Part shown: positions 1,536 to 58,271 of the stretch, piece by piece
Layout: each line of letters begins with the position of its first letter
Position numbering within the stretch: the first letter of the stretch is position 1
Assembly: GCA_015075625.1 (NCBI GenBank)
Contig: JABTTZ010000002.1
Span: forward strand, 806,001 to 870,000
DNA from: Anaerolineales bacterium
GTDB taxonomy: Bacteria > Chloroflexota > Anaerolineae > Aggregatilineales > UBA2796
Direction: 5' to 3'
DNA length: 64,000 nt
Made by a program: the position numbers and the translations under genes
Notes under the pieces: model-generated
What the model saw: the letters and a program-made list of their open reading frames with translations, nothing else
Database searches by the model: none
Told to the model about the DNA's origin: nothing

Positions 1536-3788
1536 ATGATGACAGACCTCATCGGGCAGCGTCTTGGGGATTATGTGATCAGCGGCGTGTTGGGCAAAGG
1601 AGGCATGGCAGCCGTCTACCGCGCGCGCCAGCAAAGCGTTCAGCGCGATGTGGCGATCAAAGTGATCAAACCCGATCTCACCCAGTCGCTAAACCCGGAA
1701 GAATTCCTCGCCCGTTTCCGGCGCGAGGCACAGACGATTGCCAACCTGAGCCACCCCCATATTTTGAAATTGTTCGATTACGGGCAGGCGGGCGAGATGC
1801 TCTACCTGGTCATGGAACTGCTCTCCGGCGGCACGTTGGCGGATCGGCTCAAGGGAGGACGCCTCAACCTGACCGCCGCCGCAAAACTCTTGGATCAGGT
1901 GGCGGGGGGGCTTGATTACGCCCACAAGCGGGGCATCGTCCACCGCGACCTGAAACCGCAAAACGTCCTCTTTGACGAGGAAGGCAACGCCTTCCTGAGC
2001 GATTTTGGGATTGCCAAACTGCTGAACGAGGGGACGAAACTGACCGGCACGGGGACGGCGCTGGGGACGCCCGCCTACATGCCGCCGGAGCAGTGGCAAA
2101 ATAGGGCGCTGGACGCCCGTGCCGATGTCTATGCGCTGGGGGTGCTGCTCTTTGAGGCGCTCACAGGGCAGATGCCGTTCAACGCCGACACGCCCTTCCA
2201 GATGATGTACGCCCATGTGAACGAACGCCCCCGCTCCTTGCGAGGGATGGTCGGTACCATCCCCGAAAGCATTGAGGCGGTGATTCTGAAAGCGCTGAAC
2301 AAAGAACGCGAGGATCGCTTTCAAAGCGCGGGCGCTTTTGCCGAGGCGTTTCGGGCGGCGCTGACAGGCGTGATGCCAGTGGACGCTGGGCAGGAGATGG
2401 ATCGCACAGCACGGACACCCGCCGGGGGGATTCCCGCTGTGATACCAACAGCAATGCCCACAGAAGACGCCCCTCAACCCCAACGCGGCGGTGGACGCTC
2501 CCCGCTGACTGCCGGATTGGTCGCCCTCGTCGTCGTCATTGGCGTTATCATGATCCTCATCGGGAGGGGCGGAAATGCGCCCACCACTGGAACAGAGACA
2601 GCGATCAGCACCACCCCTTCAGCGGCGGCGATGAATCCAACGGAGACGACGCCCCCCCCCGCCACCACAACGGAAACGCCCTCGTCAATGGCGACAGATG
2701 CTCCCACTGCTACCTACACAGCAACCTTTCGCTTGGAGGAGATTGCCGCAGCCACGCTGACGGCGGGGGCAGCAACCCGTAACGTAATCCAAACGGCGAC
2801 GGCGGGGCAGCGAACAGTTGAGGGATACATTGCGGCGGCAAACGCCACCGAGACGGCGGCGCTTTGGACATACACGCCCACACCGACGAACACCTTTACG
2901 ACGACCTTTACGCCCACACCGACGAACACCTTTACGACGACCTTTACGCCAACGCCGACGAACACCTTTACGATGACCTTTACGCCCACGCCGACGAACA
3001 CCTATACACGCACCTTTACGCCAACGGCAACCTTCACTCCTTCCAAGACGCCCGCCTCCTCCGTCGCCGCCACGCCGACGTTTATTCCCGCTGGAGCAAA
3101 GGTGAATTGGACGGTTGTCAAGCAGGCGTTTGACGGCGTGCCGATGGTGCTTGTCCCGGCCGGCTGTTTCATGATGGGAAGCACTACTAGTGAGGATGAA
3201 AAGCCAATCCATGAGGTGTGCCTCACGAAATCCTTTTGGATCGACCAATATGAGGTGAGCAACGCCCAATTCAAAAGCAAAGGCGGACAAGCGAAACGCT
3301 CTAGTAACTGGACGGGCAGTGATCTCCCCCGCGAAAATATCACCTGGTTCGAGGCGCGGGATTTCTGTACCCTGCGCGGAGCGCGGCTGCCCACCGAAGC
3401 GGAATGGGAATACGCCGCCCGTGGACCCCAGAGCCTTGCCTACCCTTGGGGGAACAGTTTTGTGGCGGACAATATGGTTTACTCCAATAATTCAGGGGAT
3501 GAACCTGCCTCGGTGGGGAGTCGCCCCGGTGGGGTATCATGGATAGGGGCATATGATTTGAGCGGGAACATGTGGGAATGGGTGGCGGATTGGTATGATT
3601 CGGGCTATTATGGCGTCTCGACCAAAACCAACCCACAGGGGTCGCAGGACGGAAATTCTCGCGTGCTGCGGGGCGGGTCGTGGATCAACGACGAGGACTA
3701 CGCCCGCGCTGCGAATCGGAACTGGAACATTCCTGCCATCGAGGACATCTTCGTTGGATTCCGCTGCGCCCGCTTTTTCTCCCAGTAG
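1536..3788 (+). CDS. Membrane Ser/Thr protein kinase with C-terminal formylglycine-generating-enzyme-like domain
   Basis: 750 aa. The cytoplasmic PknB-type kinase domain spans about residues 13-270: glycine loop GKGGMAAVY, VAIK lysine K42, HRDLKPQN with D138, DFG at 156-158, and PPEQ in the APE position. One transmembrane segment lies at about 324-343. A long Thr/Pro/Ala-rich linker (about 350-515) follows, containing four 12-residue repeats. From about 525 there is an FGE-sulfatase/SUMF1-like C-type lectin fold with FMMGS, FWIDQYEVSN, RLPTEAEWEYAARG, GNMWEWVADW and GFRCAR. By topology this domain should be extracellular, so it probably senses or binds a ligand; enzymatic FGE activity is not implied. 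The start could be this ATG or the next in-frame ATG at 1539. The gene stands alone, with a terminator 43 bp downstream. The kinase assignment is firm and the ligand is unknown. Confidence 0.92.
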   Translation: MMTDLIGQRLGDYVISGVLGKGGMAAVYRARQQSVQRDVAIKVIKPDLTQSLNPEEFLARFRREAQTIANLSHPHILKLFDYGQAGEMLYLVMELLSGGTLADRLKGGRLNLTAAAKLLDQVAGGLDYAHKRGIVHRDLKPQNVLFDEEGNAFLSDFGIAKLLNEGTKLTGTGTALGTPAYMPPEQWQNRALDARADVYALGVLLFEALTGQMPFNADTPFQMMYAHVNERPRSLRGMVGTIPESIEAVILKALNKEREDRFQSAGAFAEAFRAALTGVMPVDAGQEMDRTARTPAGGIPAVIPTAMPTEDAPQPQRGGGRSPLTAGLVALVVVIGVIMILIGRGGNAPTTGTETAISTTPSAAAMNPTETTPPPATTTETPSSMATDAPTATYTATFRLEEIAAATLTAGAATRNVIQTATAGQRTVEGYIAAANATETAALWTYTPTPTNTFTTTFTPTPTNTFTTTFTPTPTNTFTMTFTPTPTNTYTRTFTPTATFTPSKTPASSVAATPTFIPAGAKVNWTVVKQAFDGVPMVLVPAGCFMMGSTTSEDEKPIHEVCLTKSFWIDQYEVSNAQFKSKGGQAKRSSNWTGSDLPRENITWFEARDFCTLRGARLPTEAEWEYAARGPQSLAYPWGNSFVADNMVYSNNSGDEPASVGSRPGGVSWIGAYDLSGNMWEWVADWYDSGYYGVSTKTNPQGSQDGNSRVLRGGSWINDEDYARAANRNWNIPAIEDIFVGFRCARFFSQ
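2874..3017 (+). repeat. Four tandem 36-bp repeats inside the kinase gene
   Basis: Units start at 2874, 2910, 2946 and 2982. Each encodes the 12 residues TPTPTNTFTTTF with small variations (M for T, YTR for FTT). The length is a multiple of three, so unit gain or loss keeps the frame and changes the length of the stalk between membrane and sensor domain. The low complexity produces spurious open frames on the other strand. Confidence 0.9.
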
Positions 3789-3933: not shown

Positions 3934-4100
3934 CCTACAGCATTTTTCAAGGAGATTGACCCCTTAGTGGTTGACAGCCCCGCTTATCACAATATACTTA
4001 CCGATGGGCTAGGCGGTGGTGATCTAAAGGGTAAACGAACGACGCCCGCTCTTCTTGTAAGAAGGCTGGTTGCAGTCCAACCAGTGAGGGTACTGCAATA
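3934..4100 (+). ncRNA. Candidate structured small RNA / orphan leader, copy A of a two-copy element
   Basis: Copy B is at 33372-33536 and most positions agree by eye. From a predicted transcription start near 4005 the RNA would contain a CUUCU-UGUA-AGAAG hairpin (4051-4064). Next comes a 7-bp hairpin, CTGGTTG (4066-4072) with CAACCAG (4078-4084) and loop CAGTC, then GAGGG and ACTG (4092-4095), which can pair with the loop CAGT as a pseudoknot. The seventh stem pair is G-C here and A-U in copy B, a compensatory change. In copy B the element runs into an ATG; here the matching place reads ATAAG, so no frame follows and the transcript would be stand-alone. It matches no riboswitch class I know. 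The function is unknown. Confidence 0.5.
3971..3998 (+). promoter_or_regulatory. Sigma70-type promoter of RNA element copy A
   Basis: TTGACA (3971-3976), a 16-bp spacer, and TATACT (3993-3998). The same boxes and spacing are kept in copy B although the spacer sequence differs, which suggests selection on the promoter. Confidence 0.7.
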
Positions 4101-10701: not shown

Positions 10702-10858
10702 GGATTTACGCAGTTGAACGTGTTTACCCCGTATTGATCGAAAGAGGTAGATTGAGGGGGAAGCCCCCTCAAGACTTCTTTTCCCCCTTCTCCCTCAGGG
10801 AGAGCGGGTACACGCCGAAGGCGGGTCGCAGGGGGATGACGGAAAATGCGTAACTCCT
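10702..10858. mobile_element. MITE-like element, copy 1
   Basis: 157 bp, non-coding. Its ends are GGATTTACGC and GCGTAACTCC (inverted), flanked by the perfect 7-bp direct repeat AAAAGGC (10695-10701 and 10859-10865). The interior matches the copies at 32517, 51729 and 58130 (TGTTTACCCCGTATTGATCG) and contains the hairpin TTGAGGGGGAAGCCCCCTCAA. No transposase is in the window. Confidence 0.75.
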
Positions 10859-32516: not shown

Positions 32517-32678
32517 TAGGACTTACGCAGTTGAACGTGTTTACCCTGTATTCATCGAAAGGGGAAGTTTGAGGGGGCTTCCCCCTCAAAAAAATGGATT
32601 CCCGCCTCTTCCAGTGGGAGAAGCAGGTACACGCCGAAGGCGGGGCGCAGGGGGATGAGGGCAACTGAGTAAGGTCTA
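32517..32678. mobile_element. MITE-like element, copy 2
   Basis: 162 bp with ends TAGGACTTACGCAGTTG and CAACTGAGTAAGGTCTA (inverted, three mismatches), flanked by the perfect 5-bp direct repeat TCTAA (32512-32516 and 32679-32683). An internal hairpin, TTTGAGGGGG-CTT-CCCCCTCAAA, is present. It ends 29 bp before the -35 box of the Fe-S carrier gene. Confidence 0.8.
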
Positions 32679-33371: not shown

Positions 33372-33536
33372 CCTACAGCATTTTTCAAGAAGATTGCCCC
33401 TTATTGGTTGACAGCCTTGCTCAGCCTGATATACTCCTCAATGGGGTATGCTGTGGTGATCTAAGGGATAAAATCACGACGTTCGCCCGTCTTGTAAGAA
33501 GGCTGGTTATAGTCTAACCAGCGAGGGTACTGCAAT
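33372..33536 (+). ncRNA. Candidate regulatory leader RNA of the phosphatase-psuG operon, copy B
   Basis: Copy A is at 3934-4100. The leader of about 95 nt, from a predicted start near 33442, ends directly at the ATG. It has a 7-bp hairpin CTGGTTA (33503-33509) with TAACCAG (33515-33521) and loop TAGTC. CGAGGG, the ribosome-binding site (33522-33527), follows, then ACTG (33529-33532), which can pair with the loop UAGU to form a pseudoknot bracketing the ribosome-binding site. Stem pair 7 is A-U here and G-C in copy A. The layout suggests control of translation initiation. The ligand or factor is unknown. Confidence 0.5.
33408..33435 (+). promoter_or_regulatory. Promoter of the phosphatase-psuG operon
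   Basis: TTGACA (33408-33413), 16-bp spacer, TATACT (33430-33435), identical in both boxes and spacing to copy A. Confidence 0.75.
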
Positions 33537-34121
33537 ATGCGCATCATTCTCGCCCGTCATGGGCAATCGTTCGTCAATGTCGACCCCGCCAAATATGCCG
33601 GACAGGATACCCCCTTAACCCCATTGGGAGAGGCACAAGCACATGCACTTGGCGTTTGGCTGAAAACACACCACATCACCGACATTGGGTTGATCTATGC
33701 CAGTCCGCTGAAACGCGCCAACCAAACGGCGGAAATCGTCAACTGCTATTTGGAAAAACCGCTTGAGATCGACGCCGATTTGGTCGAGATTGAACGCTTT
33801 GATTGGGGGCTGCTGGAAAAGCGCGATCACCCACAGAGCGCCACCATCAGCCGGACTGTTGACCCCTATTACGCTGCCTTTCACGAGCGCGTTGGGCGTT
33901 TCTTCACAAAGTTAGTCGGCGATGTCTCGCGCACGGATACCCTTCTCGTCGTGGCACATGGTGGGACGAACGGGACGCTCATCCGCCATATCTTTCGCTC
34001 CCTCGAACTCGCCACAAATACGAATAACACCGGCTTGCATATCTTCGATTGGCATGAGGGTAATTGGATCATTCGGGGGATCAACGTCACCCGCCACCTG
34101 CCCATGGAGATGCTTTCATGA
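33537..34121 (+). CDS. Histidine phosphatase (phosphoglycerate mutase-like) family protein
   Basis: 194 aa. The N-terminal LARHGQSFVN carries the catalytic His of the branch-1 RHG motif. IYASPLKRANQTAEIV has the second phosphate-binding Arg, and VVAHGGTNGTLIRHIF the second His. It is probably a phosphatase for a sugar or nucleotide phosphate rather than a glycolytic mutase. Its stop overlaps psuG's ATG, so the two are co-translated. Substrate might be a product of pseudouridine breakdown (inference from context). It lies directly behind RNA element B. Confidence 0.85.
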   Translation: MRIILARHGQSFVNVDPAKYAGQDTPLTPLGEAQAHALGVWLKTHHITDIGLIYASPLKRANQTAEIVNCYLEKPLEIDADLVEIERFDWGLLEKRDHPQSATISRTVDPYYAAFHERVGRFFTKLVGDVSRTDTLLVVAHGGTNGTLIRHIFRSLELATNTNNTGLHIFDWHEGNWIIRGINVTRHLPMEMLS

Positions 34122-51728: not shown

Positions 51729-51871
51729 ACTCACCTTACGCAGTTGGGTTTGTTCACCCCGTATTCGTCGAAAGGGGCAGTTTGAGGGGGAAGCCCCCTC
51801 AAAAAAGTGCATTCCCCCTCTCCCGCGTGGCGGGAGAGGGGTTAGGGTGAGGGTCTGTGCCTAAGGTGAGT
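51729..51871. mobile_element. MITE-like element, copy 3
   Basis: 143 bp, perfect 10-bp terminal inverted repeats ACTCACCTTA / TAAGGTGAGT, flanked by the 5-bp direct repeat TAGTC (51724-51728 and 51872-51876). The interior has the family signature TTACGCAGTTG, CGTATTCGTCGAAAGGGG and hairpin TTTGAGGGGGAAGCCCCCTC. Its right third differs from copies 1 and 2. Confidence 0.8.
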
Positions 51872-58129: not shown

Positions 58130-58271
58130 TAGGACTTATGCTGTTGAGCGTGTTTACCCTAGTATTCATCGAAAGGGGAAGTTTGAGGGGGCTTCCCCTT
58201 CAAAAACTCGTTTCCCCCTTCTCCCTCAGGGAGAAGTGGGAAGGGGGATGAAGGCGACTGCGTAACGTCTA
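58130..58271. mobile_element. MITE-like element, copy 4
   Basis: 142 bp. Left end TAGGACTTATGCTGTTG, right end GCGACTGCGTAACGTCTA (inverted match). CCATT lies on the left (58125-58129) and again one base after the right end (58273-58277). The interior has TGTTTACCCTAGTATTCATC and GAGGGGGCTTCCCC. The downstream gene's start codon is 30 bp from its right end, so the element could supply or disturb its promoter. Confidence 0.72.

Follow-up and report, generated by a model that had tools for sequence, protein, structure and literature searches.

The window, by which we mean the whole 64,000-nucleotide stretch of DNA that was analysed, holds two copies of one repeat on the + strand, at 3934-4100 (copy 1) and 33372-33538 (copy 2), which align over the full element. 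Copy 1 is near the family consensus and runs from CCTAC|AGC to GTACTGCAATA, and copy 2 is old and diverged, at about 83% identity. Both carry TTGACA-N16-TATACT, predicted to be a sigma-70-type promoter, at 3971-3998 in copy 1, where a scan reports 11 of 12 matches, and at 33408-33435 in copy 2, where it was read from the sequence. Further downstream, copy 1 has two hairpins, P1 (TCTTCT-TGTA-AGAAGG, 4050-4065) and P2 (CTGGTTG-CAGTC-CAACCAG, 4066-4084), the second of which reads CTGGTTA-TAGTC-TAACCAG in copy 2 (33503-33521). The shared hexamers and the 7-bp hairpin are as an earlier note on this DNA had described them, and so is pair 7 of the hairpin, which is G-C in copy 1 (4072/4078) and A-U in copy 2 (33509/33515). 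A GAGGG that is nearly invariant across the family, a candidate Shine-Dalgarno sequence, follows P2 at 4086-4090 and 33523-33527. In copy 2 it stands 9 nt ahead of the ATG at 33537, the start codon, abutting the copy, of a phosphoglycerate-mutase-like gene of the histidine-phosphatase family (PF00300, 33537-34121, + strand). No co-directional gene starts 3' of copy 1; the next gene, argF-like, lies on the opposite strand with its end 76 nt downstream.

The element had been taken to exist in two copies, but the genome holds about 108 of them. A search of the assembly (4.68 Mb in 5 contigs) with copy 1 gives at least 40 copies at 91-100% identity, and a covariance model built on the 3' 105 nt gives about 108 copies of an interspersed repeat of about 165 bp without genes, the weakest few being doubtful. 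Patterns made from the ends occur 87 times (left) and 101 times (right). We collected 102 copies, of which 93 are full length, 49 on the + strand and 44 on the - strand. The copies are 70-98% identical to the consensus and fall into several subfamilies. Outside this genome the covariance-model search, a check that the earlier note had proposed, comes back empty: the repeat is absent from 10 other genomes of the same family. A wider search of 153 other genomes of the order gives no more than three hits, each 20-28 nt long and close to the E-value limit, which is chance level. Plasmids searched by blastn have no match, and exact core patterns of the repeat found none in viral contigs or in the contigs of GTDB r220. 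The earlier note saw no resemblance to a riboswitch class, and indeed no known RNA class fits: no covariance model of Rfam 15, riboswitches and HEARO included, matches the repeat even at E up to 5. The literature searched contains no account of such a family. As far as sequence comparison can tell, the best reading of the repeat is a mobile element that carries a promoter and a leader, is non-autonomous and is specific to this lineage.

The left end of the repeat is CYTAC followed by AGCATTTTTCAAGGAGATTG, with CYTAC|AGCA in most copies, and the right end is GAGGGTACTGCA, mostly followed by ATA. The ATA comes directly after TGCA in 52 of 92 right ends and 4, 8 or 12 nt past it in 12 more, other offsets being found in only 5; about a quarter of the right ends are without it. 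The tails with 4-nt steps include TGCA-ATCA-ATA, TGCA-TGCA-ATA and TGCA-ATCG-ATCA-ATCA-ATA (L101:1045-1224, L075:1357-1540, L110:670-852, and others). At two loci, L121 (C1:1074690) and L086 (C1:1736003), the element's final ~16 nt (GAGGGTACTGCAATA) recur in tandem just past the 3' end, imperfectly in one case. Paired ends lie 125-150 nt apart, save in a few shortened or diverged copies and one that is internally deleted. The internally deleted copy (L115, G000:C1:1969005-1969087) keeps both ends and P1/P2 and is devoid of the promoter. When the ends are compared by eye (CTACAGCATTTTTC vs TATTGCAGTACCCTC), no terminal inverted repeats are seen. Among the 102 copies, the -35 sequence is exactly TTGACA in 77 and the -10 sequence exactly TATACT in 60. 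Old subfamilies, too, have retained the promoter, the hairpins and GAGGG.

The difference between the window copies at pair 7 was first read as a compensatory change that argues for a selected RNA and not just duplicated DNA. The promoter and the structured leader are supported, in that the hexamers and both hairpins are conserved, but the argument overlooks that the repeat is a high-copy mobile one, and for such a repeat two similar copies alone imply nothing about RNA. The specific compensatory change is not supported either: 95 copies of the family have G-C at pair 7, 2 have G-U, window copy 2 alone has A-U, and five others have A-C, hence a broken pair. In 70 distinct copies P1 is paired in 96.0% and P2 in 97.6% of cells, and double-changed cells number 5 where shuffling predicts 0.6, with covariation above that of every shuffle. 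This excess is by itself not proof of either hairpin, because related copies can exceed shuffles without any structure. Among 31 mostly old copies P2 is paired in 94.4% of cells, and its pair 4 has six exchanges of A-U for G-C. Judged from a tree, the switch at pair 4 probably represents about two independent events, a modest amount of covariation. The proposed pairing of the P2 loop with a downstream ACTG is possible in both window copies, as had been noted, but as a pseudoknot it is not supported over the 70 copies: 21 of them have a broken pair 3 and 34 a broken pair 5, and the covariation is no better than in shuffles.

The position of the copies relative to genes was determined with a home-made codon-usage gene caller, run on the flanking stretches. 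Of 92 copies, 62 have a co-directional gene to their right and 30 do not (p = 0.001). Among the 93 full copies, 18 have a gene start no more than 8 nt past the 3' end, and none has an outward-pointing one that close to the 5' end (p = 8e-6); of random intergenic points, 1.9-9.4% are within 8 nt of a gene start. Ten of the proteins that start near a copy were identified from their domains: DNA polymerase III delta, E1 dehydrogenase, FolD, carbamoyltransferase, MraY-type transferase, biotin carboxylase, glycogen synthase, histidine phosphatase (window 33537), PALP enzyme and transaldolase. They are diverse and have no pathway in common; gene names such as holA and mraY are our reading of the domains. 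Because many copies directly precede ordinary as well as essential genes, the family resembles a jumping promoter by which gene expression has been rewired in this one species. The copies could instead be simple REP-like repeats that play no part in expression, the promoter-like and hairpin features being passengers. Many copies, window copy 1 among them, do sit where no co-directional gene follows, and the genome does have other intergenic repeats. We nevertheless hold this to be improbable: the -35 box, the hairpins and GAGGG are among the best-preserved parts of diverged copies, and the crowding of gene starts, 18 to 0, is at one end only.

The element inserts as a unit, as orthologous and paralogous empty sites show. 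In the congener G001 only a few bases separate the ftsI stop from the mraY start (GTTAACCTTATG), and between the same genes this genome has an insertion of about 162 bp, which is the element. The second case is a dispersed intergenic repeat that contains the element at C1:1799341 and is free of it at C1:844305 and C2:119724; the empty site reads CCC-TA-GTTACC and the filled one CCC-TA-[element]-TA-GTTACC. These two are the only insertion events resolved to the base. For window copy 2, the flanks fall on different contigs in the congener, which therefore offers no readable empty site for it. A test for open reading frames across joined flanks yielded candidates for insertion inside coding genes, but on inspection and gene calling none clearly interrupts a gene.

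The empty site between ftsI and mraY also bears on another reading, in which the repeat is a cis-regulatory leader RNA that is inherited vertically, acts like a riboswitch or binds a protein, and coordinates some 100 genes as one regulon. Such an RNA would account for a structured leader with a conserved P2 and for GAGGG right ahead of start codons, and its GCCC could pair with the Shine-Dalgarno GGGU, a helix paired in 98.2% of cells. Yet this anti-Shine-Dalgarno helix has no covariation above shuffles and was rejected. An inherited leader is also at odds with the lack of the repeat in all 10 family relatives, the empty site of the congener, the 30 of 92 copies (window copy 1 included) without a co-directional gene, the absence of a common pathway downstream and the lack of an Rfam match. 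We consider it highly improbable.

What moves the element was sought among the genes of the genome and at the ends of the repeat. An autonomous parent was rejected: a pattern search of the genome for both ends at up to 3 mismatches, with inspection of odd end pairs, found the short element only and no copy holding a longer, gene-bearing insert. One possible mechanism, unlikely in our estimate though deserving consideration, is that of an IS630/Tc1-mariner-type MITE moved by a TA-duplicating transposase, which would be compatible with a mobile promoter. It would explain the TA on both sides of the element at the paralogous site, the left ends in YTA and the 52 of 92 right ends in TGCA-ATA. However, the ends resemble short direct repeats (TACAGCA, TACTGCA) more than inverted ones, about one right end in four lacks ATA, and the genome has no longer element with matching ends. 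Since terminal inverted repeats were sought and none was seen, the element falls outside the usual definition of a MITE.

Quite unlikely, in our view, is an element of the IS200/IS605 (Y1) palindrome-associated kind, or one of the TnpB style with a guide RNA, having a fixed 5' target CYTAC, a hairpin near the 3' end and an internal promoter that reads outward through the right end. The YTAC-like left target and the 3'-subterminal hairpin are as expected, and the genome does carry Y1 and TnpB genes. But those genes have different ends, on which ground they were rejected as the parent, the paralogous empty site is CCTAG and not CCTAC, and a guide-RNA model does not predict that start codons should crowd the 3' end. 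The leader RNA itself might take part in movement, for example through an RNA intermediate or RNA-guided insertion, as a self-spreading 5' leader with the stepwise tails TGCA-(NNNN)n-ATA as its footprint; this we regard as highly improbable.

The two window copies thus most likely belong, on the comparisons above, to one family of small non-autonomous mobile elements, each in effect a portable expression start. The element, of about 165 bp and without an open reading frame, would consist of a sigma-70 promoter, a leader of ~95 nt that folds into two hairpins and, at the 3' end, a GAGGG resembling a Shine-Dalgarno sequence. A trans-acting transposase, which may have been lost or may go unrecognised here, would insert it at sites resembling C(C/T)TA. 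Where a copy lands correctly oriented and close ahead of a gene, its own promoter, leader and Shine-Dalgarno sequence would replace the displaced native start signals. Because the element supplies a promoter and a Shine-Dalgarno sequence for those displaced, insertions directly before genes may be tolerated or favoured. Gene-adjacent copies would then be kept by selection, and others, such as window copy 1, may be neutral passengers.

Mobile promoters are reportedly short, near-identical repeats that lie upstream of unrelated genes and are assumed to be promoters. They are cited in PMC8049555 ('Promoter propagation in prokaryotes', Matus-Garcia et al. 2012; van Passel et al. 2014). The present family is like them in having many near-identical copies of a short repeat ahead of unrelated genes, its promoter role being predicted from conserved hexamers. 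As judged from the citing paper and general knowledge, it differs in its defined start and end, its structured leader, a Shine-Dalgarno sequence reaching the start codon, a copy number of about 108 within a single genome, and empty sites that have been resolved. Correia elements are MITEs with outward promoters. MITEs, of which MITEAba12 is an example (PMC6382973), share with our element the small size, lack of genes, high copy number, intergenic location and, as proposed for it, movement in trans, but the element here has neither terminal inverted repeats nor a recognisable parent transposase. The REP/GTAG repeats and REPINs (PMC3733652, PMC8049555) are likewise high-copy intergenic repeats with palindromes, and the left end of the element reads GTAG on the opposite strand. 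The element is however 165 bp long against 20-40 bp, asymmetric and promoter-bearing, and some 130 bp separate its hairpin P2 from the GTAG end. The family would work like the mobile promoters, and the MITEs with promoters, that others have described; its reach up to the start codon with a folded leader is unusual.

Should the copies prove active, a single mobile repeat found in this lineage alone has given a promoter, a leader and a Shine-Dalgarno sequence to dozens of unrelated genes, some of them essential (MraY type, DNA polymerase III delta), and promoter turnover by transposition would be directly testable against the congener with the empty site. The case also cautions that two similar 'RNA elements' in one window can belong to a large repeat family.

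Other repeats were encountered in the course of the analysis. A second intergenic repeat family, TTACGCAGTTGAACGTGTTTACCC.GTATTCATCGAAAGGGG, occurs in the window at 10702-10803, 32519-32672, 51732-51833 and 58162-58234, and similar sequence lies near several copies of the element (L030, L233 and L235, for example). At window 2867-3046 there are tandem repeats of 12 and 36 nt inside a gene for a 750-aa kinase/sulfatase-modifying-factor-like protein. Elsewhere in the genome (L144, G000:C1:1725000-1727500) an intact Y1 transposase of 142 aa lies within dense arrays of palindromic repeats (GGCGCGGGGTTAAAACGCCCGCGC...CCCCTACGGGG), the two together possibly forming a REP/RAYT-like system.
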